Notes: a model not told the origin generated them from the letters alone. DNA of 64,000 nt from Verrucomicrobia bacterium IMCC26134 (GCA_000972765.1 CP011265.1:558001-622000); one strand, 5' to 3'. Numbered from the stretch's first letter, positions 4,152 to 18,964 are shown. Translations and numbers: made by a program.

Positions 4152-5300
4152 TCACGGTGTTCTTGTATGCGGGCGCAGGTCCTTCGAGGTGGCGAGGGCG
4201 ATGACGCGGCCTTGGTCGCCGACGGCGCAGTAGAAATGGTAGACGACGCCCTCGTGCTTCAGCACCCAGGGTTTGTGGGCGAATTGCTTGTCGTAGGGCT
4301 CGCCGGGCTCGACGAGGTGGGGGCCGTCCCACTTGGTCCAGTGGACGAGATCGTAGGAGGCGGCAAAGGTGTCGAAGGCACCCGGTTTCCAGAAGGCGCC
4401 GAAGTAAAACATGACCCATACGTCGCCGATTTTGGCGAGCTGGGGGTCTCCGCTGATGGCCCAGGGCGTGGGGCCGACGTTGTTGACGACCGGCCCGTGG
4501 CCGAAGCGACGCCAATTGTGGAGATCGTCGGAGATGGCGAGGCCGATGCTCTCCTGGCCGTAGGGAGGGGCCTTGCCGTTGTAGAACATCACGAAGGGCG
4601 CGCCGAGGGTGCGGGCTTCGTCGCGGATGATGGCGCTTTTGTAGAGCGTGGTGTGCTCGAAGTCGCGGGTGTCGGGCTGGGCGGGCGAGAGCACGGGGTT
4701 TTTCGGCAGGCGTATCCAATCCTTAACGACGGAAGGATCGTCGGTGTGGGCGAGGCCGATGGAGAGCGGGTCGGTCTCGTAGCCCTTTTGCGCGCCGCCG
4801 ATGTAGGAGAGCCAGTAGCGGCCCTCGTGGGTGCCGAGCTCGTGGGTGGCGTCGTCCCAGCGGGTGTCGTAGAGGGCGAGGCCGCCGTCGGCTTGCCAGG
4901 CGTCCCAGCCCTGTTTGGCGAAGGGGAGGATCTTGCCGACGCGTTGCCAGTGGAGGAGGTCGTCGGACACGGCGAGGTGGGTCTCGTAGCCGACCTTGTC
5001 CTGGTTCACGACGAACATCATGAACCAGCGGCCGCCGTGTCGGAAGACGTTGGCGCAGTCGAGCACTTCACCGGGACCGGCGGGGAGGACGACGCCGTAT
5101 TTGCAGGGCGTTTTTACCTGCTCGTGCAGCTCGCGCATGAGCTTGCCGGAAACGAGGCGCGGTTTGCCGGCGGAAGGAAACGCGATGACGGCGGGGCGTT
5201 CCTCGGCGGCGGCGGAACACGAGCCGGCTAGCTGCGCGGCCAAGAGCAGACCGAGCGCCGCGAGCAGGCGGGTGGGGCGGCGAAGGCGAGTTGAGCTCAC
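4152..5300 (-). CDS. Secreted five-bladed beta-propeller glycosidase (GH43/GH130-like)
   Basis: I place the start at the GTG at 5300, which overlaps the stop of the upstream rhaT gene in a GTGA. This gives 382 residues beginning with Arg-rich residues and a hydrophobic signal peptide ending near GSCSAAAEE; an upstream ATG at 5414 would lie inside rhaT. The mature protein has the repeated blade pattern of the GH32/43/68/117/130 superfamily: short RWFMMFVVNQ-type strands followed by DDLLHWQRV or DLVHWTKWD turns, each with SDD/YDL-xH-W motifs. The exact CAZy family and the catalytic acids cannot be fixed by eye. Position after RhaT suggests it releases a sugar that RhaT imports. The sigma factor gene begins 70 bases downstream on the same strand, so it may share a transcript or be separately expressed. 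Confidence 0.8.
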   Translation of the reverse strand: MSSTRLRRPTRLLAALGLLLAAQLAGSCSAAAEERPAVIAFPSAGKPRLVSGKLMRELHEQVKTPCKYGVVLPAGPGEVLDCANVFRHGGRWFMMFVVNQDKVGYETHLAVSDDLLHWQRVGKILPFAKQGWDAWQADGGLALYDTRWDDATHELGTHEGRYWLSYIGGAQKGYETDPLSIGLAHTDDPSVVKDWIRLPKNPVLSPAQPDTRDFEHTTLYKSAIIRDEARTLGAPFVMFYNGKAPPYGQESIGLAISDDLHNWRRFGHGPVVNNVGPTPWAISGDPQLAKIGDVWVMFYFGAFWKPGAFDTFAASYDLVHWTKWDGPHLVEPGEPYDKQFAHKPWVLKHEGVVYHFYCAVGDQGRVIALATSKDLRPHTRTP

Positions 5301-6352
5301 GCGACTGGAGGAGCAGCGAGGAAGTTGCCGTAAGTGAGCAGGCCGACGGCGGCGAAGAGCAGCGCGATGGCGGCGGCGACGATGAACTTGGTGGAAGGGC
5401 GGCAGGACTTCCATTCGCCGATCGCCACGCCGAAGCCGCAGCTGAGTAGAATCAGGATGATCATGTGGATCGCCCAGCTGGAGAATTTGAATTCGCCCAT
5501 GCGCACGTGGCCGAGGCCGTAGAAGAAAAACTGCAGATACCAGAGCAGGCCGGTGAGCGCCGAGAATGCGTAGTTAAGCGCGAGGCTGGCTCCGCCGGCA
5601 GAGGTGAATTCGCCCGAGGACTTGTCTCGGGTGATGAGGTAGAGGCAGTAGATCAACGTGGTCGTGAACGCGCCCGAGTGGGAGAAGAGATAGATCACGT
5701 TACCTTGAAAATTGCCGGCGCCGTATTTCGCGGCGACGTCGGCGACGGGTTGGCCGGCTGCGAGTGAGAAGCTGAAGACGGCGGACAACACGCCCGCGAG
5801 CACCACGATGGGCAGGCCGAGGCGGGGATTGAATGTCGAGTTGGAGGCGTCCTCGGTGCTTTGCTCGCGCTCCTTTCGGAATCCGGCAAACCCGGTAACG
5901 AATGTCGCGATGGCGCCGAGAAGCACGCCACCTATGACGTAGGTGCCGCCGGTGTTGGAGAGCGTCTGACCGAGGGTGCCGCTCATGATGGTCGGTATGA
6001 GCGTGCCGAGCACGCAGGAGAGACCGATGGCGATGGCGTAGGTGAGCGAGAATCCGATGTAGCGGATGGCGGCGCCGAACGCGATGCCGCCGACGCCGTA
6101 GATCACGCCGAGCACGTAGGATTTGAGCATCGCGTCCTTAGGGGCCTCGGCGAGCACGGTGCCTAGCTGCGGGATGGTCGCGACGGCGAAAATCCAAGGC
6201 AGCACAAGCCAGCACGCGGCGGCTTGGACGAGCCAGTAGGTCTGCCATTTCCAGTTTTTAACGTAGCGCTGGGGGGCGTAGCAGAGCGCGGCAGAGGCGG
6301 CGCCCACGGTGTGGAGCAAGGTTCCGAGCAGGGGCGAGGGATCGGGTATCAT
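5297..6352 (-). CDS. rhaT: L-rhamnose/proton symporter RhaT-like
   Basis: The 351-residue product is a polytopic membrane protein with about ten hydrophobic segments. It opens with LLHTVGAASAALCYAPQRYVKNWKWQTYW-type residues (family pattern with YxPxxxVKxWxWExxWL) and continues with YGVGGIAFGAAIRYIGFSL and a TLIP segment, all typical of the RhaT family of the drug/metabolite transporter superfamily. RhaT imports L-rhamnose, or a related 6-deoxy sugar, with protons across the inner membrane. No rhamnose isomerase or kinase is in the window, so the true substrate is open. The gene is the first of a minus-strand set with the propeller glycosidase (4-base overlap) and then the sigma factor. Confidence 0.88.
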   Translation of the reverse strand: MIPDPSPLLGTLLHTVGAASAALCYAPQRYVKNWKWQTYWLVQAAACWLVLPWIFAVATIPQLGTVLAEAPKDAMLKSYVLGVIYGVGGIAFGAAIRYIGFSLTYAIAIGLSCVLGTLIPTIMSGTLGQTLSNTGGTYVIGGVLLGAIATFVTGFAGFRKEREQSTEDASNSTFNPRLGLPIVVLAGVLSAVFSFSLAAGQPVADVAAKYGAGNFQGNVIYLFSHSGAFTTTLIYCLYLITRDKSSGEFTSAGGASLALNYAFSALTGLLWYLQFFFYGLGHVRMGEFKFSSWAIHMIILILLSCGFGVAIGEWKSCRPSTKFIVAAAIALLFAAVGLLTYGNFLAAPPVA

Positions 6353-6615
6353 AGGGTAGGCGAGGGGTTATGGAGGTAATTGAGCCTGAGTTGAAGCTCG
6401 GCCTGAAAGACGGTCGTATGCCGATCGGCGCTTGGCGAGCCGAGATGGAAATTGAACCTCTAGCCGTTGAACGTGGTCGGGCGACGCGATTTGCACGGTG
6501 ATCGGGTGAGGTGCCGGTCGTGGATCGTTTGCTGCTCGCGCGTCACTGTCCCACGAGTTCCCGATTTTTAAACGGGAGTGTCGCCTTGTTGTGAACGCGT
6601 CCCTTGATTCGTCCC
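6353..6615. other. Divergent intergenic region between rhaT and the GH2 gene
   Basis: These 263 bases separate two genes pointing away from each other and should hold both promoters. I see no convincing hairpin, operator repeat or consensus promoter pair in it. Confidence 0.5.
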
Positions 6616-9045
6616 ATGATCATCGAGTTTTCGAGACGTTTGGTGCTGGGCTTATCCAGTCTATTTTTTGCCCTCGCTACGGTGCCGGTTTCATTTGCTT
6701 CGCCGCGCGAAGATATACGGCTCGATAAAGGCTGGCGTTATCATCCAGGTGAAGCACTGGGCGCGGACGTGGTGTCTTATTATGACGCGAATTGGGCGCA
6801 GGTCACCTTGCCTCATGACTGGAGCATCGCCAGTCGGGTGGATGCTGCGGCGCCGGCGGCGGGGCACGGCGGGTATTTTCCGACCGGCCCTGGTTGGTAT
6901 CGTCTTAAAATAGCAGCGCCCGGGACGTGGGCGGGACGTCAGGTGGAGATTGAGTTTGAGGGGGCTGCGATGGGCGCCGAGGTTTGGCTCAATGGCACTC
7001 CGCTCGGCCGCTGGGCCTACGGTTACACTCCTTTTCGTTTTGATCTGAGCCCGAGTCTCCGTTTCGGCGCGGACAACGTGCTTGCCGTGCGGGTAGATAA
7101 CTCGGCGCAGCCGAATTGCCGCTGGTATTCCGGCTCTGGCCTTTATCGACCGGTCTGGCTGCGCGTGACGGATCCGGTGCGCGTGCCGGCCGGCGGCGCT
7201 TGGGTGACGACGGAGGAACTGACGGCCAAGCAGGCCCGCCTTCAGGCGCATATCGAGGTCATCAACGGATCGCCGCTGGCGCGCGAACTAACGATCGAGA
7301 CAGAAGTGCGCGACTCGCACGACAAGATCCTCGCGGTCGAACGAGTGCTGGCCCCGGTGGCGGCCCGTGCCGGGTGGAGCGGTTCGCTCAATCTTGTCGT
7401 TCGAAATCCGATAACGTGGAGCCCGCAGAAGCCGGTCTTGCATCGCGCCATCACCCGCATTCTGGACGGCGAGCGATTACTCGACGAGACGATGACAACC
7501 TTCGGTATCCGCACCGTGCGCGTATCCGCCGGGCGGGGATTTGAGTTGAACGATCTGCCGGTAAAGCTGTTTGGCGGTAATGTGCACCATGATACCGGCC
7601 CGCTCGGCGCGGCTGCTTTCGCCCGCGCCGAGGAGCGCAAAGTTGAGCTGCTCAAGGCAGCTGGGTTTAACGCCGTGCGAACCTCGCATAATCCGCCCTC
7701 GGCCGCCTTTCTTGAAGCGTGCGACCGGCTGGGTCTGCTGGTGGTCGATGAGATTTTTGATGTTTGGGAGAAAGCCAAAAATAAGCGCGATTATAGCGAA
7801 CTATTCAAAGACTGGTGGTCCCGGGACGTGGATGCGTGGGTGCGCCGCGACCGGCACCACGCTTCGGTCGTGATGTGGAGCGCAGGCAACGAGATGTATG
7901 AACGCGGTAGCGCAGGCGGACGGCGCATTGCCGGTGATCTCGCGGCGCGGATTCGCAGCCTCGACGCGACCCGGCCTGTCACTGCGGGTGTCAACGGTCT
8001 GGCCAAACCCGAGGATTGGTCAAAGCTCGATCCCTTGTTCGGGTTATTTGACGTCGCTGGCTACAACTACGAACTCCAGCACCACTCCGCTGATCATGAT
8101 CGTCTGCCGGGGCGCGTTATGATGGCGACGGAGTCCTATCAGACGGAGGCTTTCTCAAGCTGGGTCGTAATGACGGAGCAACCCTATGTGATCGGTGATT
8201 TCGTGTGGAGTGCGCTGGACTATCTTGGAGAGGCCGGCATCGGTCGGGTGTTTCCGCCGGGTCAGGAAGCAAAGAAACACTGGGAAATGGAGATGTTTCC
8301 CTGGCATGGTGCCTATTGCGGCGACATTGATCTGACAGGTTGGCGCAAGCCGGTTTCACATTACCGACAGATCGTCTGGGATCGTGGCGAAAAGCTCTAC
8401 GCTGCCGTCCGCGTTCCACCGCCAGGCGGGGGCGAATGGAACGTCACGCCCTGGTCGGTTACGCCCATGTTGCCGGCCTGGACCTGGCCCGGACAGGAGG
8501 GCAAGCCCATGACGATCGAGGTTTATTCCCGCTACGACGCTGTGCGACTCGAACTCAATGGCCGTGTTTTGGGTGAGAAACCTACTACGCGCGCCGAGGA
8601 GTTTAAGACGGCATTCACCGTGCCCTACGAACCCGGTGAACTAAAAGCGGTGGGTTTAAAGGCAGGAAAATATGCCGAATCCTTTGTGCTGCGCAGCGCA
8701 GCAGCGGCGACCAAGCTACGATTGAGCGTTGATGACGAGAGGGTGCGCGCAGACGGGCAGGACCTGATATTCGTGACTATCGAAGCGATCGATCGACGCG
8801 GAGTCTGGCAGCCTCACGCCACGCCGCGAGTGACTTTGAGTATCGAGGGCGCGGGCACATTGGCTGCGCTCGGCTCCGGTGATTTGACCACGCTCGATTC
8901 CTACGCCGGTTCCGTGCGTGATCTCTATCAAGGTCGCGCACTGGCTGTAATCCGAGCCACGGATCAGCCAGGCAGGATAACCCTCTGCGTGAGCGCTCCT
9001 GGGTTTCCGGTTGCGAAGCTCACCCTCAAATCGGACCGCCCATAG
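6616..9045 (+). CDS. Secreted glycoside hydrolase family 2 enzyme (beta-galactosidase-like)
   Basis: I choose the ATG at 6616 over an in-frame TTG at 6604; it gives 809 residues with a clear signal peptide (about 1-30, ending SFASP). GH2 architecture follows: an N-terminal sugar-binding jelly roll with LDKGWRYHPGE and LPHDWSI, an Ig-like domain, a TIM barrel entered at FGIRTVRVSAG and NLVVDEI-type strands, and C-terminal beta domains (AVRLELNGRVLGEK, then an Ig-like tail). The probable acid/base is Glu426 in WSAGNEMYERG and the probable nucleophile Glu506 in MMATESYQ. The enzyme should act in the periplasm or outside the cell on beta-linked galactose or similar residues. It is transcribed alone between two minus-strand carbohydrate groups and is likely part of the same utilisation locus. 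Confidence 0.9.
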   Translation: MIIEFSRRLVLGLSSLFFALATVPVSFASPREDIRLDKGWRYHPGEALGADVVSYYDANWAQVTLPHDWSIASRVDAAAPAAGHGGYFPTGPGWYRLKIAAPGTWAGRQVEIEFEGAAMGAEVWLNGTPLGRWAYGYTPFRFDLSPSLRFGADNVLAVRVDNSAQPNCRWYSGSGLYRPVWLRVTDPVRVPAGGAWVTTEELTAKQARLQAHIEVINGSPLARELTIETEVRDSHDKILAVERVLAPVAARAGWSGSLNLVVRNPITWSPQKPVLHRAITRILDGERLLDETMTTFGIRTVRVSAGRGFELNDLPVKLFGGNVHHDTGPLGAAAFARAEERKVELLKAAGFNAVRTSHNPPSAAFLEACDRLGLLVVDEIFDVWEKAKNKRDYSELFKDWWSRDVDAWVRRDRHHASVVMWSAGNEMYERGSAGGRRIAGDLAARIRSLDATRPVTAGVNGLAKPEDWSKLDPLFGLFDVAGYNYELQHHSADHDRLPGRVMMATESYQTEAFSSWVVMTEQPYVIGDFVWSALDYLGEAGIGRVFPPGQEAKKHWEMEMFPWHGAYCGDIDLTGWRKPVSHYRQIVWDRGEKLYAAVRVPPPGGGEWNVTPWSVTPMLPAWTWPGQEGKPMTIEVYSRYDAVRLELNGRVLGEKPTTRAEEFKTAFTVPYEPGELKAVGLKAGKYAESFVLRSAAAATKLRLSVDDERVRADGQDLIFVTIEAIDRRGVWQPHATPRVTLSIEGAGTLAALGSGDLTTLDSYAGSVRDLYQGRALAVIRATDQPGRITLCVSAPGFPVAKLTLKSDRP

Positions 9046-9130: not shown

Positions 9131-9952
9131 TCAGCCGCGCAGCCCGGAGAGCTGCATCAAACGGTTCGTCTGGTTGTAGGCTTCCTCGACCCATTCAACG
9201 ATACGTGAGGGGTCGGGCGAATACTCTAGCTCGATGGCCACAGTCCCGTCGATCTTGAGCTCCTTGATTGCTTGGAGGTAGGGTTCGAATTTAACGATGC
9301 CGCGGCCGGGCGGGAGGTCGCCATGGACCTTGCCGTCGCAGTCGCTGATGTGGACGTGGATGGCCTTGCCTTTGAGCTTCACCAGATCGCTCGGCATCGT
9401 GTCTGCGAGGACGAGGTGGCTGATGTCGATATTGGCACGGACGCGGGGGTGGCCGCACTCGTCCACGAAGGCGGCCATTTTCTCGACGCTGTTGAGCAGG
9501 CTGAGGCGGAAAGGCTCGAGCTCGAGGGCGATATCAACGTTCTTCTTGTCGGCGTAGTCACCCAGGGTGCGGCAGGTCTCGATCGCCCAGGCCCACTGCG
9601 CCTGGGGCGGAATGACTTCGCGTTGCCAGATGTATTCGCCGAGGACGAGGAGGATGTTTTTTGCGCCCCATTCGTGGGCGAGGTCGATGAAGGCTTTGCA
9701 GCGGGTGACGTGAAAATCACGCACGGGATCATTGAAATCGATGAGACCCGCGGCGACGACCACGAGCGAGGTGACCGGCAGTCGGTATTTGAGGCAGGTG
9801 TTTGCGACGATGCGTTTTTCCTCCGCGCTGATGCCGTAGGCTTCGGTAAAGATATCCACACAATCGAAGCCGATGCGGGATATATGGGCGAGGCCTGTGG
9901 CGGTGTCGACGCCGGCCTGGCCGAATGCGCTGTTGATGATGCCTAGTTTCAT
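9131..9952 (-). CDS. Sugar phosphate isomerase/epimerase, TIM barrel
   Basis: The 273-residue product starts MKLGIINSAF and has the fold pattern of the xylose isomerase-like TIM barrel family (AP endonuclease 2 superfamily), which includes D-tagatose/D-psicose 3-epimerases and inosose isomerases. Likely metal ligands can be seen: Glu in IALELEPF, Asp and His in NIDISHL, His in IHVHISDCDG, and Glu in VAIELEYSP. It should interconvert keto-sugars or keto-inositols in the cytoplasm using a divalent metal. It is the last gene of the run that contains the Gfo/Idh/MocA dehydrogenase (48-base gap) and the desaturase-Rieske-reductase fusion. The substrate cannot be told from sequence. Confidence 0.85.
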   Translation of the reverse strand: MKLGIINSAFGQAGVDTATGLAHISRIGFDCVDIFTEAYGISAEEKRIVANTCLKYRLPVTSLVVVAAGLIDFNDPVRDFHVTRCKAFIDLAHEWGAKNILLVLGEYIWQREVIPPQAQWAWAIETCRTLGDYADKKNVDIALELEPFRLSLLNSVEKMAAFVDECGHPRVRANIDISHLVLADTMPSDLVKLKGKAIHVHISDCDGKVHGDLPPGRGIVKFEPYLQAIKELKIDGTVAIELEYSPDPSRIVEWVEEAYNQTNRLMQLSGLRG

Positions 9953-10000
9953 GAGGTTTAGGTGAGTTGGGGGTTTGTTGGATCGGAGACGAAAGAGGAA

Positions 10001-11089
10001 TCAGGTGCCGGGATGAATTTCAGTCAGGGCCACTGCCCGATGCTCGGCCGCGCTGCGATAAGCTGCCTCGACGAGAGCCATGGTTTTGAGGTTGTCGCGA
10101 CCGGAGATGGCGGGTGTGGCGCCGGTGGCGAGCGCGGTCAGGAGCTGGCCCATGGTGCCGGCGAAGGCGTCAGGGAACCAGCTCTCGTTCCACGTCGGCT
10201 CGTGGAAGGCGGTGTCGCCTTTCACGGCATAGCGGATGCTCGATGGGGTGGTATAGGGAGTTTTCACCCAGCCGATGTCGCCCATGGCGAGTCCGTCGAG
10301 GCCCTCGATGCGCCAGCGGATGCCGAGGTCGGCGGGGCAACCTTCGCGAGCAGGACCGGTCCAGACGTCGTCTATGACCGTGCAGCGCAGGCCGCCGGCG
10401 TATTCAAGAATGTAGGTCGCGATACCGTCGGTGTGGGCAAATTTTGTGCGCGGATCGGGCCGTGTGCTGCAATAAATGCGCTCCGGGTCGCCGAACCAGT
10501 AGCGAAGGCAGTCGATATGGTGAATGGACATGATGCGCAGGGTGACCCAACCGAGTTTTTCCTGCCATGGCATGAGATGCGGGATGCCGCGCATATCGAT
10601 GCTGGCGAAGACGGGCATGCCAAGCGCACCCTGATCCAGGAGCGACTTTGCGGCGCGCACCGATTGGTCGTAACGCATGTTCTGGTTTACGGCGAGGGTG
10701 ATGCCCGCCCGCTCGCAAAGCTCCACTGCGCGCACGGCCTCGGCGTAGTCATTGCCGATCGGCTTTTGAGCGAGAATGCCCTTCACCGTGCCCCGTTTGC
10801 AGGCACCTTCGATAAGACCTAGCTGGGCGTCGGGTGGCACGGCAATGTCGAGCACCTCGATGGTCGGGTCGTCGAGCAATTCAGCGTAGCTGCAAACCTT
10901 GGGGATGCCGTGGCGCGCAGCGGTCTTCGCCGCTGATTCCGGTGTGCGTGAGGCGATGGCGACGGGGTTGTAGCCTGCTTTGCGATAGCTGGGCAGGTGG
11001 CAGTCGCTAACGATAAAGCCGCTGCCGATAATGCCGATGGGGTAGTCCTTTTTAGGAGGCGAAGGCGGGGTGATCTTCAGGTCGTGCAT
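10001..11089 (-). CDS. Gfo/Idh/MocA family NAD(P)-dependent sugar dehydrogenase
   Basis: I place the start at the ATG at 11089 (MHDLKIT), 22 bases after the upstream stop; an ATG at 11146 would overlap the upstream gene. This gives 362 residues. A Rossmann motif (IGIIGSGFIVSDCHLPSY) opens the protein, a QKPIGNDYAEA segment replaces the usual EKP motif, and IHHIDCLRYWFG matches the family HxxDxxRxW pattern near the active site. The family oxidises or reduces hydroxyl groups of sugars and inositols with NAD(P). MocA itself belongs here and acts in rhizopine breakdown, which fits the Moc-like fusion two genes upstream. Substrate unknown. Confidence 0.87.
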   Translation of the reverse strand: MHDLKITPPSPPKKDYPIGIIGSGFIVSDCHLPSYRKAGYNPVAIASRTPESAAKTAARHGIPKVCSYAELLDDPTIEVLDIAVPPDAQLGLIEGACKRGTVKGILAQKPIGNDYAEAVRAVELCERAGITLAVNQNMRYDQSVRAAKSLLDQGALGMPVFASIDMRGIPHLMPWQEKLGWVTLRIMSIHHIDCLRYWFGDPERIYCSTRPDPRTKFAHTDGIATYILEYAGGLRCTVIDDVWTGPAREGCPADLGIRWRIEGLDGLAMGDIGWVKTPYTTPSSIRYAVKGDTAFHEPTWNESWFPDAFAGTMGQLLTALATGATPAISGRDNLKTMALVEAAYRSAAEHRAVALTEIHPGT

Positions 11090-11111
11090 TGGGGTGGGGT
11101 AGTGGTTTTTA

Positions 11112-12017
11112 TTAATCTGATGCGTGCCGTTTCTTGGCTTCAGCAAAACAGGCGCGCGCGATGTCGTTATAGACTAGTGCCTCACGATAGCGGTCGCTTT
11201 CCTCAATAAAGCCGCCCGTGCCATTGGGGAAACGCCTCGCGTAGTAATAGGCGCCGGAAAGCAGTTCCGGGCAAAAAACAAGGCAGTCGCCACGACCTGC
11301 ATTGCGGAGAAAACCGAGCATGGCGTGGGTCCAGAGCGATTTGAAATCGTCGAGGAAATTGACAACGCCATGAGCGGCGGGCGGGCGTCCCTGACCATCG
11401 CCAATCGAGACCTGCATGCAGCCCGAGCTGCCGATGCGGCCGTGCATGAAGGCGACGCGCTCGAAGATTGGGGCCATGAAGGCGAGCTTCGTGGGCATGT
11501 CGCCGTAGGCTAGCTCTTGACCGGTGTAGAAGTGGCTGAAGTCGCCATTGAAACGAACATCGGGGAAACGTTTGGTGAGTTGCACCGTGCGCCACAGGTC
11601 CTGCGTGATGGTGGCACGGTGGGTTTCGATGAAGACTGGCAACGAATGGCGTTGAGAGGCGCGCAGAATGGCATCGACCAGAAAGTCGATTTCGGCGTCA
11701 TCCTCCAGTCCCCATCCGACATGGAGTGTGACGCAGTCATGCCCGAGGGCGGCGTGGCGTGCGATGACGGGATCGGCCTCGGCGGGGAGATTGACGCGAT
11801 CCGATCCGCAATGGCGCAGGCTCGTGCCGCCTGGCGCAGGCGAGGAGTCGACGCATTGCACGCCTTGAAAACCATCGGCGTCGAGGCGTTTGTCACGGGC
11901 CGCACCGGTGAGGCCGGGCCAGAGTGAGTCCGGCCTGAGGTCGTCGAGGTTGGCGAGGTTAATGTAGGCGAGAAGTTTGGGGGAGTCGGCGGAACCGTCG
12001 TTGACGTAGGAAGGCAT
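11112..12017 (-). CDS. TIM-barrel sugar isomerase-like protein (MocC-type context)
   Basis: The 301-residue product has the xylose isomerase-like TIM barrel pattern. VFIETHRATITQDLW, FNGDFSHFYTG, FMHGRIGSSG and FCPELLSGAYYY supply candidate metal-binding Glu, Asp/His, His and Glu at the ends of successive strands. I expect cytoplasmic isomerisation or epimerisation of a sugar or inositol derivative. It begins 2 bases after the stop of the desaturase-Rieske-reductase fusion, so the two are almost certainly translated from one message. It differs clearly from the second TIM-barrel protein downstream (9131-9952), so they are unlikely to be redundant. Confidence 0.8.
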   Translation of the reverse strand: MPSYVNDGSADSPKLLAYINLANLDDLRPDSLWPGLTGAARDKRLDADGFQGVQCVDSSPAPGGTSLRHCGSDRVNLPAEADPVIARHAALGHDCVTLHVGWGLEDDAEIDFLVDAILRASQRHSLPVFIETHRATITQDLWRTVQLTKRFPDVRFNGDFSHFYTGQELAYGDMPTKLAFMAPIFERVAFMHGRIGSSGCMQVSIGDGQGRPPAAHGVVNFLDDFKSLWTHAMLGFLRNAGRGDCLVFCPELLSGAYYYARRFPNGTGGFIEESDRYREALVYNDIARACFAEAKKRHASD

Positions 12018-12019
12018 AA

Positions 12020-14305
12020 TTAAAATTCGTCGAAAGCAATTTGGCGGTCGGGAACGCCAAGGGTGGCGAGCATTTTGGTGACGGCGCGGATCATCATCGG
12101 CGGACCGCAGAGGTAGTATTCAACCGCCTTTGGGTCGCGGTGCTCGCGCAAGTAGTGATCGAGCACGACATCATGGATGAAGCCGGTGTGACCGTTCCAT
12201 TTGTCCTCTGGCAGGGGGGAGGACAAGGCGAGGTGAAAGGTGAAGTTCGGATGCGTTTCAGCGAGTCCTTCGAAATAGTCCCCGTAGTAGATTTCCTGCT
12301 GCGAACGCGCGCCATACCAGAAGCTCACGCGGCGGCGGGTGTGCTCGGTCTCGAAGAGGTGGGAGAGGTGGGCGCGCAGCGGGGCCATGCCGGCGCCGCC
12401 ACCGATGTAAACCATCTCGCGTTGTGTGGGTTTGATGTGAAAGTCGCCGAACGGGCCGATGGCGGTGAGGCTGTCGCCGGGTTTCAGGCTGAAAATATAG
12501 GCTGAGCCGATTCCGGGCCCGCAATCCTGGCCAGGGGGAGGCGTTGCGATGCGAACGTTAAAGCGCAGCGTGCGTTCGAGCGATTGGTTGCTGGCGAGGG
12601 AGTAGTTATTGCGCCGGCCTGGCTCGGTGTTCCGCGCTTCGAGGTCGAAGACGTGTTGATTGCGCCAGACGGAGGCATAGGGCTCGGGAATAGCAAAGTC
12701 GGCGAAGCGGATTCTTTCGTAAATCGGTATGTCGATTTGGAGGTAGTCGCCGGGGGTGAAGGTCACTTTTTCAGCCGGGTCGATAGGTTCTAACACGAGC
12801 TCTTTGATGAAAGTGGCGACGCTGTGATTGCTGACCACACGTAAATGGAGAGTCTTTTGTGTGCGGACGCCGCAGTCCCGGGATAAAGTGACGTTGAGCC
12901 TGATACGACCGGCGCGTTCCTCGACGGGATAGGTGGCGAGACCTCGGCAGATCGGTGCGCGGGCGGGTGAGCCGTCGGCGAGAAAGAAGCGACCGTTGTG
13001 CTTCGGACACTCAATGATGTTATCCTTTACCAATCCCTCGGCCAGATGGGTGTTGCCGTGGGTGCACATGCCATCGGTGGCGTAGAGCGCGCCTTTTTCG
13101 TCACGGACGAGGGCGTAGGTTCTTCGTCCGTGATCAAAGCGCATGACATCAGCCCGGCCGAGATCTGCCGACGCGCAGACGTCTAGCCAGCCATCTGCGT
13201 CGGGAACGGCGTGTGCGTCATGCGCGTTCGTTTTTTCACGGGCTTTCGGCGCAGGAAGTGAGCGTTTAACATGGTATGCCGGGTCTTTGACCTGACGCAG
13301 GACAGCGGGGATGATTTCGCGCCATGCGGAAACTAGACCGGGATAGGCCACCGGCATATCTTCCTTTACTGCTTCGTGCAGGCTGGGCAGCGCGTGGTAG
13401 GGGACCAGCGGGAACATGTGGTGTTCCACATGGTAATTCATGTTCCAATACAGAAACCGGTTTATCGGGTTCATGTAAACCGTGCGGCAGTTAAGGCGAT
13501 GATCCAAGACGTTCTCGGCCAGACCGGTATGCTGGGTGAGACCGTATATGAGCATTAGCCAGGTGCCGAAGAGGTGAGGCAGGCCGACGAAAAGCACCGG
13601 CAGGATGCTCTTGGAGGCAAGGGCTGTGATCAAAGTCGCCGCATAGATCGCCACGTAGAGGCGCGCTTTGCGGTATATTTTCGGAAACTCGCTTTCAGGG
13701 ATGTAGGTTTTCTCGTCAGCGCTCATTTTACCAAACGAGTGCATAACGACATGTTGAAAATATTTTGGATAAACCGGCAGGCCGAAGAGTGCCTTGGCGA
13801 GACCCTTGAGGTCAGGTGGGCGAGGCACGGCGATCTCGGGGTCACGGCCAACGATGATCGTGTCGCTGTGATGGCGGGTGTGACTCCATCGCCATACCGT
13901 TGATTCGCGCATCACCATGAATGATGCGATTTCGTAGAGCACGTTGTTCATCCAATCGGTCTTGAACGCCGTGCCATGTCCCGCCTCGTGCCAGCGGGAG
14001 TCTGACGTCGAGCCGTAGAGCGTGGCATAGGCGAAATAGGGCGCAAGCGCCCACCACGAGGGCCAGAGCATGCAGGTTGCGGCGGCGGCGGATAGGATAA
14101 GGGCGAACCAGATGATCGTGTCTCTGATGGCCGGCCCGTCCTTGCGTTCGAGGAGTTTGCGCATGGTCGAGCGCGGCACGGGGCATTGATACCAATCGGC
14201 CTCGGCGAGACCTCGCTCGATGGCACGGGAGGCGTTTTCGCCGGTGAGACTGTAGTCCAACTTGGTAGGCGGCTTGAGAAAGACAGCCGTGGGTTCGTGG
14301 CTCAT
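12020..14305 (-). CDS. Three-part oxygenase: fatty acid desaturase-like / Rieske [2Fe-2S] / NqrF-like flavin reductase fusion
   Basis: The 761-residue chain joins three modules. Residues about 50-345 are a membrane di-iron domain of the desaturase/hydroxylase family, with hydrophobic segments near 64-100 and 215-255 and histidine boxes HEAGH (106-110), HTRHH (142-146) and HVEHH (292-296). Residues about 370-470 are a Rieske ferredoxin with CTH at 414-416 and CPKH at 433-436. Residues about 485-761 match the flavin and NADH domains of NqrF: RNNYSLAS (565-572), GGGAGMAPLRAH (635-646), YGARSQQE, CGPPMM (733-738) and an acidic Asp-Glu-Phe end; the plant-type ferredoxin domain of NqrF is absent. 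Electrons would flow NADH to FAD to Rieske to di-iron. Rhizobial MocD, MocE and MocF supply comparable parts as separate proteins. With a MocA-like and two isomerase-like genes downstream, O-demethylation of a sugar or inositol is the favoured inference; lipid hydroxylation is the alternative. Confidence 0.9.
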   Translation of the reverse strand: MSHEPTAVFLKPPTKLDYSLTGENASRAIERGLAEADWYQCPVPRSTMRKLLERKDGPAIRDTIIWFALILSAAAATCMLWPSWWALAPYFAYATLYGSTSDSRWHEAGHGTAFKTDWMNNVLYEIASFMVMRESTVWRWSHTRHHSDTIIVGRDPEIAVPRPPDLKGLAKALFGLPVYPKYFQHVVMHSFGKMSADEKTYIPESEFPKIYRKARLYVAIYAATLITALASKSILPVLFVGLPHLFGTWLMLIYGLTQHTGLAENVLDHRLNCRTVYMNPINRFLYWNMNYHVEHHMFPLVPYHALPSLHEAVKEDMPVAYPGLVSAWREIIPAVLRQVKDPAYHVKRSLPAPKAREKTNAHDAHAVPDADGWLDVCASADLGRADVMRFDHGRRTYALVRDEKGALYATDGMCTHGNTHLAEGLVKDNIIECPKHNGRFFLADGSPARAPICRGLATYPVEERAGRIRLNVTLSRDCGVRTQKTLHLRVVSNHSVATFIKELVLEPIDPAEKVTFTPGDYLQIDIPIYERIRFADFAIPEPYASVWRNQHVFDLEARNTEPGRRNNYSLASNQSLERTLRFNVRIATPPPGQDCGPGIGSAYIFSLKPGDSLTAIGPFGDFHIKPTQREMVYIGGGAGMAPLRAHLSHLFETEHTRRRVSFWYGARSQQEIYYGDYFEGLAETHPNFTFHLALSSPLPEDKWNGHTGFIHDVVLDHYLREHRDPKAVEYYLCGPPMMIRAVTKMLATLGVPDRQIAFDEF

Positions 14306-14404
14306 TTTGTGGGGCAGGGTGTTCTCTTCGGGGCGGGGGGGGCGGGCAGCGAGACTGCGCTACAGGAGACGTGGATATTCTGCGGATTGTCCAGAGTGCT
14401 TAGT

Positions 14405-15454
14405 TCAATCGCAGGAAAAGGCGTAAACTGTGGTATGTCGTCGAGGTTGGCCCGGCTGAACGATGATGTCTCCGAGCTCCGGAACGTTTACGCTGTCGGG
14501 GTAGCCTTCGCACTCGAGGCAGAAGCCGTGATGCTTTGCGTAGCGAACTCCGGATTTCCCTATCAGCGAACCATCTAGGGCGACGCCGGAGTAAAACTGA
14601 ATACAGTCCTCGGTCGTGAGCACTTCCATTACGCGACCGCTGCACGGTTCTTTCACTCGCGCAGCAGGCAGTAGAGACACGTGATCGTCCGCCGGCCGAT
14701 TGACAAAATACAAGTCGCCATGCGCGCCGACGATAGATGGCAAGACATCGCCTATACGCCTGAACTGGCGAAAGTCGCCGCCCTGTTCGACTGATGATTT
14801 CCGCCCGAGCAAGGTCATCGCACCATCGGTGGGAGCGAAGGTTGCTGCGAAAACCTGCAGTTTGTGGCCGGTTACGTCGCCCGCATTCTCGCCCGCCAGA
14901 TTGAAATAAGAGTGATGGGTGAGACTTGCCGGAGTGGCACGATCGGAGGAAACCTCGGTTGCGAAAATAAATTCGTTCCGATCGGTCAGTGTAAGAGTGA
15001 CCCGGGCTTTCACGTGGCCGGGATATCCCTCCTCTCCATCCGCACTCTCCAGCGTTAGGCACACTGAATCGGCGCCATCTGGACGTGTGACCGGTTCGGC
15101 GGTCCATAGTTTCTTGTCGAAGCCGGCTGGACCGCCGTGGAGATGATTTGGCGGATCGTTTCGAGCCAGTTCATAAGTGCGACCATTGAGCGCAAAGCGG
15201 GCGTCGGTGATTCTGCCTGCTACACGCCCGGCGACCGCCCCGAAAAAAGGGTGCGCTCCAAGGTAGGGTTCAAGTGTTTCGAAGCCGAGGACTACATCCC
15301 CGACTTTACCCGTGCGATCGGGTATGCGCAGGTGGGTAACTATGCCTCCGTATTCCATTACCTCCAGCGAGCTCCCGGAAGTGTTTTTCAATAACCAGGA
15401 TCGCACGACCCTGCCGTCGGGAAGCGTTCCAAATATACGCGAGGTGGACATCAA
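14405..15454 (-). CDS. galM: Aldose 1-epimerase (mutarotase)
   Basis: The 349-residue product has the galactose mutarotase fold signature: NHLHGGPAGFDKKLW with the first catalytic His, LTHHSYFNLAGE with the second His, IQFYSGVAL, and FCLECEGYPDSVN with the catalytic Glu. It interconverts alpha and beta anomers of aldoses such as galactose. Two adjacent ATG codons (15454 and 15451) could start it. There is no obvious signal peptide, so it is probably cytoplasmic, which differs from secreted mutarotases in some glycan loci. It lies 99 bases upstream of the fusion gene on the same strand, within the carbohydrate run. Confidence 0.9.
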   Translation of the reverse strand: MMSTSRIFGTLPDGRVVRSWLLKNTSGSSLEVMEYGGIVTHLRIPDRTGKVGDVVLGFETLEPYLGAHPFFGAVAGRVAGRITDARFALNGRTYELARNDPPNHLHGGPAGFDKKLWTAEPVTRPDGADSVCLTLESADGEEGYPGHVKARVTLTLTDRNEFIFATEVSSDRATPASLTHHSYFNLAGENAGDVTGHKLQVFAATFAPTDGAMTLLGRKSSVEQGGDFRQFRRIGDVLPSIVGAHGDLYFVNRPADDHVSLLPAARVKEPCSGRVMEVLTTEDCIQFYSGVALDGSLIGKSGVRYAKHHGFCLECEGYPDSVNVPELGDIIVQPGQPRRHTTVYAFSCD

Positions 15455-15544
15455 GAGGTGGGGTTTGCGGAGCAGCCTTTTGTGGCAAGCTCCACGTTCC
15501 GGATTTTATCCGTATTCAGGCAATGTCCAAACCCGGTGTGTTCG

Positions 15545-15811
15545 CTAGTTTTTCGTTTTCTTCGATTTACCCCAGCGCCAGTGCGGTCTTTCCCCTCGCA
15601 ACCAACAAGCCGCGATTAATCCGGCGGAGAGCCCGATCGCATAGAGCGCAAACCAAGGCGCTCGTGCCGACGTGCGGACGCTCCATGCTCCGCCAAGCAT
15701 CAGGGTCAGGTAAACGCCGACGACTACCCAGCCTTGCCAGCACACTGGCGGTCCCCAACCCCAGCCGTAGGTCTTGGCCGGAAACCAGATTTTTTGCGGT
15801 GAGGTCTTCAT
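15545..15811 (-). CDS. Small two-pass membrane protein
   Basis: The 88-residue product starts MKTSPQKIWFPAKTYGWGWG and contains two hydrophobic stretches, about residues 24-42 and 52-68, ending in a basic tail (WGKSKKTKN). The aromatic-rich YGWGWGPPVCWQGW motif is distinctive; I recall similar short proteins in other bacteria but cannot name a family or role. It sits between galM and the sulfatase on the same strand with 90- and 76-base gaps, so it may be an ordinary housekeeping membrane protein caught in the run or a helper of the locus. Confidence 0.65.
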   Translation of the reverse strand: MKTSPQKIWFPAKTYGWGWGPPVCWQGWVVVGVYLTLMLGGAWSVRTSARAPWFALYAIGLSAGLIAACWLRGERPHWRWGKSKKTKN

Positions 15812-15887
15812 GTTTATCCCGTATATCTTTACGCAAAGCGATGTGCCGACCTGTGGTCGGGGTGGGGTAGTGTTTGCGCGCAGGTTT

Positions 15888-17831
15888 TTAGGGCGGAGTG
15901 ATGCGGGCGAGCAGACCGTCGATCAGGGCCATGGTTTGCACCGACAGGTGATTTTCTGGCGCGGATTTAGCGGAGGCGTCCAGGGCCTTGGCGAACAAAA
16001 GCTCTTTCGCATCATGAATTGCGTCGTTCTCCGTGAGTTCGGCGACGGTGCCTGTCTTGCCGGAGAAACGCGCGGTGAGTTCGTCGCCGATCCAGAGCCG
16101 CCAGTCGGGTTCGTCGGCAAAATACACCGCGAGCACGCCGCCGTTTGCGACTCCAAGCTGCGTGGCTAGGGAGCGCATGTAGGCCCCTGGTTTGGCATCC
16201 TCATCGGCGGAGGGCGATTTGGGGTGAAAGCGCACGAGCACACGAATCCCGGTGGTCTTTTCGAACGTTGCGAGTTTTGACTGCAAGGTCTCAAGCTGCG
16301 CAGAACCTGCTGGCAGGATATGCGACGAATCCTCCACGTGTGATTTTGTGGCCGATGGCTTGGGTATCTCCGCTTCGGGTGACCAGGCGGCGGGACCGCC
16401 GGGTGTTTGACCGAGGAAACGTGCCCCGGTTTTTTGATACCAGCTATGAAGATTTTCTCTCAGTTCACCGACCAGCGGTGTTTTTTTCGAAGCGCGGTCC
16501 ACTTGTTCGCCCGGATCATCGTTCAGATTGTAGAGGGCAACGGAACCGTCCTCATAGTTTTCGATCAGTTTCCAGTCGCCCCGGCGAATGGCTCCGCCCG
16601 GGAAGCCGCCTTGATTGCTGTAGTGCGGGTAATGCCAGTAGAGCGCATCGCGCGCAGGGGGTGCGTCGCCGCGAAGGAGGGGCAGCAGGTCCATGCCGTC
16701 GATGGCTAGGCCGGCCGGCGGATGTTGCCCGGCGGCGGCGAGCGCGGTCGTGAATATATCGGTGCTCATCACCGGCGTCTCCACGGTGCGGCCGTTAAGC
16801 TTGGCGGCGGGCAGTCTGATGATGAAGGGCTCCTTTATCCCGCCTTCATAAACCCAGCCTTTTCCGCCACGATAAGGAAGATTCGAGGTTGGCAGGCCCT
16901 CGGCGGTGGAAAGCCCGCCATTGTCGGAGGTGAAGATGACCAGCGTGTTATCCGCCAGTCCCAGCGAGTCGAGCTTGGCCAGCACCCGGCCCACGGCAGT
17001 GTCCATCGACTCAACCATGGCGGCGTAGGTCGGCTGGCCTTGGACCGTGCGAACGTTTCGCGGAGATTTTGCGGAGACCATGTATTGCGTCTCCATGACA
17101 TATTGATCCTTGAGCCCGAGTCTTGATGCTTTCGCGGTGTATTTATCGATCAAGGCTTGGGGGGCCTGAAGGGGAGTGTGGACGTCGTAGAGGCTCAGTT
17201 GCAGGTAGAAGGGGGAGCCGCCCTTTTTGAACCGCTCGAGCAGACGCGTTGTCTCATCGGCCAGACGCTCGGTGAGGTTTTCGCCTGGCGGACCATCCTC
17301 CAGGCGGGGGTTTTTGTAGGGAGAAAAGTAACTTGCAGGATGCCCGGCCGACCAGCCGCCGATATTGATGTCGAAGCCCTGGGCTTCGGGCCAGTAGGCG
17401 GGCGACTCGCCCAGATGCCATTTGCCGACGAAGGCGGTGGCATAGCCGGCTGGTTTGAGTAACTCGGCCAAAGTCGTTTCCGCAGGCTCCATCGCGTGGG
17501 CAAGCGGTGCGCTCAGGAATCGTTCATTGCGGACTCCCGGCAGCCAGTTGGTGAGGCCGGCGCGAGTCGGGTAACGACCGGTCATGATGCTGTAGCGGGT
17601 GGGGCTGCAGACCGGGTTGGCGGCGTAGCCATTGGTGAAGCGAGCCCCTTGATGCGCCAACCGGTCAAGGTTCGGCGTTTCGTAAAAGGTGTGCGGGTTG
17701 TAGCACCCCACATCCATAACCCCGAGGTCGTCGGCGACGATCACGAGCACATTTAATGGCGGGGTGTCCGCAACCGCACGCGGACTACAGCCGATCGCAG
17801 CGACTAAGATGATCAGGAAGCGTAGATTCAT
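15888..17831 (-). CDS. Secreted sulfatase with C-terminal TPM-like domain
   Basis: The 647-residue product begins with a signal peptide (about 1-22; Cys15 could be a weak lipobox). The sulfatase domain covers about 25-470: the metal-binding Asp-Asp pair in VADDLGVMD, the formylglycine motif CSPTRYSIMTGR with Cys75, GKWHLGESPAYWP, FTSDNGG and PFIIRLP. Cys75 implies maturation by a formylglycine-generating enzyme; none is in the window. Residues about 500-645 form an unrelated domain with KLATFEKTTGIRVLV and GGVLAVYFADEPDWRLWIG, which resembles the TPM domain found in membrane-anchored or periplasmic proteins. Sulfatases hydrolyse sulfate esters, so the target glycan is likely sulfated. The tail is unusual for the family. 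Confidence 0.9.
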   Translation of the reverse strand: MNLRFLIILVAAIGCSPRAVADTPPLNVLVIVADDLGVMDVGCYNPHTFYETPNLDRLAHQGARFTNGYAANPVCSPTRYSIMTGRYPTRAGLTNWLPGVRNERFLSAPLAHAMEPAETTLAELLKPAGYATAFVGKWHLGESPAYWPEAQGFDINIGGWSAGHPASYFSPYKNPRLEDGPPGENLTERLADETTRLLERFKKGGSPFYLQLSLYDVHTPLQAPQALIDKYTAKASRLGLKDQYVMETQYMVSAKSPRNVRTVQGQPTYAAMVESMDTAVGRVLAKLDSLGLADNTLVIFTSDNGGLSTAEGLPTSNLPYRGGKGWVYEGGIKEPFIIRLPAAKLNGRTVETPVMSTDIFTTALAAAGQHPPAGLAIDGMDLLPLLRGDAPPARDALYWHYPHYSNQGGFPGGAIRRGDWKLIENYEDGSVALYNLNDDPGEQVDRASKKTPLVGELRENLHSWYQKTGARFLGQTPGGPAAWSPEAEIPKPSATKSHVEDSSHILPAGSAQLETLQSKLATFEKTTGIRVLVRFHPKSPSADEDAKPGAYMRSLATQLGVANGGVLAVYFADEPDWRLWIGDELTARFSGKTGTVAELTENDAIHDAKELLFAKALDASAKSAPENHLSVQTMALIDGLLARITPP

Positions 17832-17884
17832 GGCGAAGGTAGGCTTTAGAGGAAGGGGAGTGACGCGGGTGGAGGTGTTACAGA

Positions 17885-18964
17885 TTACTTTGAGTGCTGT
17901 CCGGGAGTGAAGGAATCGGTGTCGCCCCTAAATCCGGCTATCGGCCGAATCATGATGTAGGTGGGATTGCTCCCCGTTGGACGAATGGCTCCCAGCAATG
18001 CGACCGGGTCGCCTTTATCGTTTTGAAACACATAGGGGCGCTCTACGCCCGGGATATCGACCGTGGTCCCATCCTCAAACGGCACCGCATCGCGCTGCGA
18101 CCAAACCGGTATTTGCGAAAACAACTCGTAGCGTATGCCATCGGTTGAGGTGTAGTATATCATGGACCTTTCAATTCCTGTGACTTTCGCCTCCCAGTCG
18201 GTGCAGAGCAGGTTGTAGCGGTTGTTGGCCCACCAGAGCGTGGGGTCTTCCAATTCGAAATCAACGGGGAGACGGTTGCCCGCATCGCCGATCAGCGTGT
18301 AGGGGCCATTAAGCGAAGGGGCTTCAAACGCCTGCATATAGGCGTCCCACTTGCCGTCCTTTGTGACCCGGGGCTTAAATTTCCCCACGGCGTAGGCGCT
18401 ACCATCGTTTCTCAGTAGCAAGGCCGGATTGTTGGTTTTGATCACGGGGCGGGGAAGGGGAACCCACGGACCTTCGATTTTGTCGGCGTAGGCAAACCCG
18501 GTCTGCCACTGAGGAATGGCGAGATGGTAGAGCAGGAATTTGTCACCTGCCTTCATGATCTTGGGGTTGTGAATCGCCTCGCTGGCCCAAGGGTGGGTCT
18601 CGGGCGATAGCACCACTTCCTGAAACGTGTAAGGGCCAAAGAGCGACTTGGAAGTGGCGCGTATCGCATGGCTGCGGAACCAGCCATTCATGCCGTCATT
18701 GGCCGGCCAGCGTGACGCAAATAGGTGATAGGTCTCGCCGACTTTGATGACCGACGGGTCCCATAAGAAAAAGCCGTCCATTTTAAACACCGCCGACTTC
18801 GGCACGGGGCGGAGGGCATCGCGCAGTGGATTATCGTGCGGATTAATAACGGACACGCCGGGCGGCAGGGGTGGGGGCGAGAAGGATAGCGCCGATGTTT
18901 GGGCGGCTGACCAGCAGGCAGTCAGCAATACGCACAGAAACGTAACCGGGGTGATCGTTTTCAT
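17885..18964 (-). CDS. Secreted beta-propeller glycoside hydrolase (GH43/GH117-like)
   Basis: I start at the ATG at 18964, which gives 359 residues and a signal peptide ending near CWSAAQTS; the longer frame to 19189 adds 75 unlikely residues overlapping the opposite gene. Blade motifs of the GH43/117/130 superfamily are present: FFLWDPSVIKVGETYHLFAS with a possible catalytic Asp, WASEAIHNPKIMKAGDKFLL with a Glu, and DFELEDPTLWWANNRYNLL with Glu/Asp. It should cleave terminal sugar residues outside the cytoplasm. It heads the eight-gene minus run and is followed after 53 bases by the sulfatase, so the pair probably acts on the same sulfated polysaccharide. Family and linkage remain undetermined. 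Confidence 0.82.
   Translation of the reverse strand: MKTITPVTFLCVLLTACWSAAQTSALSFSPPPLPPGVSVINPHDNPLRDALRPVPKSAVFKMDGFFLWDPSVIKVGETYHLFASRWPANDGMNGWFRSHAIRATSKSLFGPYTFQEVVLSPETHPWASEAIHNPKIMKAGDKFLLYHLAIPQWQTGFAYADKIEGPWVPLPRPVIKTNNPALLLRNDGSAYAVGKFKPRVTKDGKWDAYMQAFEAPSLNGPYTLIGDAGNRLPVDFELEDPTLWWANNRYNLLCTDWEAKVTGIERSMIYYTSTDGIRYELFSQIPVWSQRDAVPFEDGTTVDIPGVERPYVFQNDKGDPVALLGAIRPTGSNPTYIMIRPIAGFRGDTDSFTPGQHSK

Follow-up and report, generated by a model that had tools for sequence, protein, structure and literature searches.

The window analysed here is a stretch of 64,000 nucleotides from Verrucomicrobia bacterium IMCC26134 (GCA_000972765.1, CP011265.1:558001-622000). According to ORF calls and profile matches, its positions 9131-18964 are filled by eight genes on the minus strand, one of them an ORF of 88 aa (Table 1). 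The original prediction of an eight-gene run containing a three-part oxygenase, with a GH2 enzyme and RhaT alongside, is borne out by these calls and by the matches of the oxygenase to FA_desaturase, Rieske and NqrF-type domains.

Table 1 Genes and domains of the oxygenase cluster and its surroundings (positions counted from the first nucleotide of the window).
Feature	Position	Strand	Remark
GH43/GH130-like secreted hydrolase	4152..5414	-	true start probably downstream of the ORF start
RhaT-family sugar:proton symporter	5297..6352	-	adjoins the cluster
Secreted GH2, beta-galactosidase-like	6604..9045	+	adjoins the cluster
TIM barrel, D-tagatose/D-psicose 3-epimerase-like	9131..9952	-	profile match
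Gfo/Idh/MocA-family dehydrogenase	10001..11089	-	ATG at 11089, inside ORF 10001-11146
TIM-barrel isomerase/epimerase-like protein	11112..12017	-	commonest downstream partner of the fusion
Three-domain oxygenase, 761 aa (desaturase-type di-iron, MocE-like Rieske and NqrF-type FAD/NADH reductase)	12020..14305	-	
NqrF-type reductase domain	12023..12856	-	residues 484-761
Rieske [2Fe-2S] domain	12890..13189	-	residues 373-472
Di-iron oxygenase (FA_desaturase) domain	13337..14062	-	residues 82-323
Aldose 1-epimerase (mutarotase)	14405..15454	-	no signal peptide evident
Small membrane-protein-like ORF, 88 aa	15545..15811	-	between sulfatase and mutarotase; ORF only
Secreted sulfatase	15888..17831	-	CSPTR formylglycine site
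Secreted GH43-like protein	17885..18964	-	ATG start at 18964; family score weak, just above cut-off

The gaps from the mutarotase gene to the last TIM barrel (99, 2, about 22 and 48 bases) fit a single operon, which suggests that these five genes form one. A gap of 433 bases, holding the 88-aa ORF, sets the sulfatase and GH43-like genes apart from the mutarotase, and these two may constitute a separate unit. The closest solved structure to the sulfatase is the kappa-carrageenan sulfatase S1_16 (9fo1); about 150 extra residues at its C-terminus, past the matched domains, have no Pfam match. The hydrolase next to RhaT resembles the beta-L-arabinofuranosidase half of a two-domain glucuronidase/arabinofuranosidase (NF049877). 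An 822-aa protein encoded next to the cluster, at 1613-4081 on the minus strand, is an ECF-type sigma factor whose C-terminal extension is very long.

The oxygenase combines in one chain an FA_desaturase domain (Pfam, 2.5e-36), a Rieske domain (7.6e-17) and a reductase assigned to TIGR01941 (NqrF, 1.5e-100; 337 bits against a cut-off of 295). For the Rieske part, the top NCBIfam subfamily is MocE (TIGR02377), which is the best-scoring Rieske model although the match stays below its curated cut-off (110.3 vs 136.15 bits). With NqrF, subunit F of the Na+-translocating NADH:quinone reductase, the fusion shares the C-terminal FAD/NADH module, the match covering NqrF positions 128-403 of 405. The fusion lacks the N-terminal membrane helix of NqrF and its plant-type [2Fe-2S] domain, and the Rieske domain occupies their place. 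The alignment of 36 fusions shows that the histidine boxes (H106-H110, H142-H145-H146 and H292-H295-H296) and the Rieske ligands (C414, H416, C433 and H436) are invariant, and that the main FAD/NADH motifs vary little or not at all; in the fusion studied here the reductase carries GGGAGMAP, CGPP and a terminal FDEF. With its ligands and cofactor motifs conserved in this way, the protein is expected to be functional and to carry the entire path from NADH to O2. The Pfam matches for the fusion and the other cluster proteins include no cytochrome P450 domain.

Rhizopine is an O-methyl ether, and in a model from 1998 Bahar et al. reportedly had MocDEF take the methyl group off it. The rhizopine gene set is mocCABRDEF (PMC10107442, PMC5789663), and one of our loci (L201, plasmid pRLa11 of R. 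leguminosarum A1) was recognised as a rhizopine moc cluster by synteny: genes for an iolE-like protein, a Gfo/Idh/MocA protein, a sugar-binding protein and a PLP-aminotransferase-family regulator are followed by D, E and F, the gene order being as expected. The oxygenase part of the fusion is 54% identical to MocD of this cluster and the Rieske part 49% identical to its E protein, with the D-E order kept, and MocA-family and TIM-barrel genes occur in both neighbourhoods. The fusion also differs from the MocD/MocE/MocF system, whose genes and regulation have been described (PMC10107442). Three polypeptides are replaced by one, and the sequence comparison gave no similarity between the fusion reductase and F, which in the homologous S. 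meliloti operon is a pyridine-nucleotide-disulfide oxidoreductase; the fusion has an NqrF-type domain instead of a MocF-type one. No mocB- or mocR-like genes were seen in the cluster; a mutarotase, hydrolases and a sugar transporter are there instead. Similarity between the TIM barrel directly downstream of the fusion and the iolE/mocC-like protein of the rhizobial cluster is undetectable, and the idea that the TIM barrels and MocA protein are close counterparts of MocC and MocA was rejected, as their similarity to moc-cluster proteins is weak or none. Since these proteins are so far from the moc-cluster ones, the cluster is, on this comparison, not a rhizopine locus.

Matches to the fusion were found in 39 of 387 genomes of the phylum Verrucomicrobiota, and a cross-phylum scan gave 80 named loci. 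Both scans together yielded about 87 full fusions, 10 D-E fusions and 24 separate D genes, a tally in which four loci were entered twice. Full fusions are present in Verrucomicrobiota, Acidobacteriota, Bacteroidota, Chloroflexota and others, with Acidobacteriaceae, Mucilaginibacter, Winogradskyella and Anaerolineae among the named carriers, and the occurrence of the same fusion in about 86 other loci places it far beyond chance. In a tree built with a quick method (support values are SH-aLRT only), the fusions group with rhizobial MocD in a single clade that comprises 119 rows (support 99), while 38 other desaturases, paralogues used as controls below, form a separate clade (support 100). The fusion oxygenase is also apart from the other, acyl-chain-type desaturase of its own genome. 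Within the large clade, a subclade of 93 rows (support 99) holds all 86 fusions used, together with six D-E rows and one D row, which suggests that the fusion arose mainly once. No description of this single-chain form of the MocD-type oxygenase, with its swapped reductase, was found in the open literature searched.

The neighbourhoods of 112 loci (fusions and split relatives) were compared with those of 38 control paralogue loci. A TIM barrel lies within 4.5 kb in 53 of the 112 loci but in only 2 of the 38 controls (p 6e-7), and a mutarotase in 23 against none (p 6e-4), in counts that rest on ORFs called by a simple script and on HMMs seeded from fusion loci, a bias favouring those loci. These are the two recurrent partners, and in 32 of 84 fusions the TIM barrel is the first gene downstream. 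Its residues E131, D159, H192 and E251 are invariant or nearly so and seem to resemble the metal site of ketose epimerases. The complete set of fusion, TIM barrel, mutarotase, MocA and second TIM barrel also occurs in three loci of other genomes (L057, L058 and L116). The unlabelled neighbours are mostly sugar transporters, sugar-acid dehydratases and kinases, and GH78 and RhaT are found among the others. The original prediction had opposed its reading to a consistent placement with lipid or carotenoid genes and never with sugar enzymes; across several phyla no lipid or carotenoid family is among the commonest neighbours of the fusion, and sugar enzymes are. The control paralogues, chosen as neutral desaturases, turned out to sit in sugar loci too, so that sugar context alone does not single out the fusion, and for this reason the contrasts drawn on here are limited to TIM barrels and mutarotases. 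AraC regulators and GH78 are not enriched near the 112 loci compared with the 38 controls. Of the 112 loci with a fusion or a split relative, about 16 have a member of the URO-D family (PF01208) close by (L051, L054, L078, L081, L090, L118, L131 and others), and such proteins also lie near control paralogues.

PanB, FolD and PurU handle methylene- and formyl-tetrahydrofolate, and such a set is what a formaldehyde-producing demethylase would presumably need. In the rhizopine operon of pRLa11, D, E and F are followed by a PanB-like gene and purU (L201:12759-14495); other rhizobial D-E-F operons have a PanB-like gene with purU, the same pair with folD, or purU without the PanB-like gene. Several of the loci with such genes, the rhizopine one among them, are on plasmids. 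The rhizobial loci with a PanB-like gene and PurU/FolD beside mocDEF (L201, L205, L073, L199 and L200) possibly represent a formaldehyde-handling module. The 9131-18964 cluster, unlike the rhizopine one, is without PanB or PurU, and PanB, PurU and FolD are missing near most fusion loci: one-carbon genes are rare around members of the fusion clade (L064, where a PanB-like gene follows the fusion, and L138). As to formaldehyde-handling genes elsewhere in the genome, PurU is present above its cut-off, whereas glutathione formaldehyde dehydrogenase and S-formylglutathione hydrolase were not found above theirs; the first result speaks for a demethylase and the second against it. By hand tally, PurU is commoner in fusion genomes (26/32 vs 168/355, p 2e-4), a contrast which is confounded by kinship and shrinks outside the own family (14/20 vs 145/331, p 0.02); it was for these reasons set aside.

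We consider it likely that the 761-aa fusion is a self-sufficient cytosolic O-demethylase for O-methylated monosaccharides. We infer demethylation itself, the cytosolic site, the substrate and the order of the steps; oxidative demethylation by a desaturase-type enzyme, as originally predicted, is well supported by the MocD/MocE homology, the one-carbon genes of related rhizobial operons and the sugar neighbours. The proposed route begins outside the cytoplasm, where secreted hydrolases and the sulfatase would release the sugar. After uptake by a transporter such as RhaT, the sugar would be handled in the cytosol by the mutarotase and the fused oxygenase. NADH would reduce the FAD in the NqrF-type domain of this non-heme di-iron monooxygenase, with electrons passing to the Rieske cluster and on to the desaturase-type domain, at whose di-iron site O2 would hydroxylate the methyl group of the O-methyl ether on the free monosaccharide. 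The hemiacetal so formed would break down to formaldehyde and the sugar without its methyl group. For this sugar, oxidation and epimerisation or isomerisation would follow through the MocA dehydrogenase and the two metal-site TIM barrels.

An enzyme with this fold and these cofactors could also hydroxylate or desaturate a carbon of the sugar or polyol itself, for instance at a deoxy position, leaving any methyl group in place, and the lack of one-carbon genes near most fusion loci would suit such a reaction. We regard it as unlikely, since the oxygenase groups with MocD of a cluster for rhizopine, itself an O-methyl ether, and since related operons do carry one-carbon genes. Somewhat less probable still is an O-methyl inositol or amino-inositol (pinitol, ononitol or rhizopine-like) as the substrate, which would make the pathway one for cyclitols rather than glycans. 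The rhizobial relatives do have iolG, iolE-like and sugar ABC genes around them, and the MocA protein of the cluster is nearest to inositol 2-dehydrogenase in NCBIfam, though far below the cut-off. Its MocA and TIM barrels are, however, weakly or not similar to moc-cluster proteins, the mutarotase that recurs with the fusion acts on aldoses and not on inositols, and the neighbours include RhaT, GH78, XylE-like and rhamnonate-dehydratase-like proteins. It is very improbable that we are dealing with an ordinary desaturase or hydroxylase of fatty acids or carotenoids that has sugar neighbours by chance: the name of the Pfam domain speaks for it, but the commonest neighbours include no lipid or carotenoid family, the enzyme is separate from the acyl-chain-type desaturase of its genome, and its sugar partners are consistent in several phyla.

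The substrates of the proposed O-demethylase may differ between loci. Nine loci, the 9131-18964 cluster among them, have RhaT within 9 kb, about six have GH78 nearby, and one has a rhamnonate-dehydratase-like gene (L118); these neighbours hint that O-methyl rhamnose or other O-methyl-6-deoxyhexoses may be the substrates in some loci. XylE-like transporters at three others (L078, L088 and L095) hint at different sugars there, and rhamnose was on that account not adopted as the single substrate. Concerning the predicted O-methylated, sulfated glycan, oxidative removal of the methyl group from a sugar or polyol is well supported by the homology to MocD/MocE, the rhizobial one-carbon genes and the sugar neighbours, but the sulfated part is not general: sulfatases are not enriched (within 4.5 kb in 9 of 112 loci vs 5 of 38 controls), and none lies beside the fusion gene in the two loci examined from the same genus (L035 and L036). 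The link to sulfation is therefore a property of the 9131-18964 locus and not of the enzyme family. As a guess, a galactan or arabinogalactan that is sulfated and bears methylated side sugars would match the S1_16-like sulfatase, the GH2 and GH43-like enzymes, the protein resembling half of NF049877 and RhaT. The genome as a whole has 29 sulfatase matches, and about 13 sulfatase genes are clustered, away from the window, in what is apparently a sulfated-polysaccharide region (G000:C1:1354507-1409482).

Many sugars in the glycans of algae, cyanobacteria and plants are capped by methyl ethers, which withstand hydrolysis; for 6-O-methyl-galactose, the route described from marine Flavobacteriia uses a P450. 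This system, from porphyran-degrading Flavobacteriia (PMC10033563 and work cited there), shares with the fusion the proposed reaction, in which a monosaccharide is O-demethylated oxidatively and formaldehyde is formed, the need for a ferredoxin and a reductase, and a GH2 enzyme nearby. The two oxygenases belong to unrelated protein families, the fusion being a non-heme di-iron enzyme of the desaturase type with the whole electron chain attached. In Pseudomonas syringae, mocDEF lies beside a second xylose isomerase gene with a function unclear to the authors (PMC5132102); likened by description only, this arrangement also places mocDEF-type genes beside a sugar isomerase gene, but as separate genes and in a xylose context. 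We give about even chances to the broader proposal that the fusions are widespread and apparently undescribed single-polypeptide di-iron sugar O-demethylases, in which MocD and MocE were fused once and an NqrF-type reductase was recruited in place of MocF, providing many aerobic bacteria of several phyla with a general heme-free route for taking methyl ethers off various sugars (rhamnose, xylose and others). If true, there would be a second demethylation route, free of heme, across Verrucomicrobiota, Acidobacteriota, Bacteroidota and Chloroflexota, which would bear on which organisms turn over O-methylated sugars and point to a role for mocDEF genes that are so far unexplained in other places; with its own electron chain, the fused enzyme would be easy to assay. 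A different self-contained oxygenase was also observed (L180:8024-10474, plus strand): a single chain joins a desaturase, a rubredoxin and a pyridine-nucleotide-disulfide reductase, and AraC and sulfatase genes lie nearby. Similarly long ORFs are on the same tree branch in three other loci (L171, L183 and L186).
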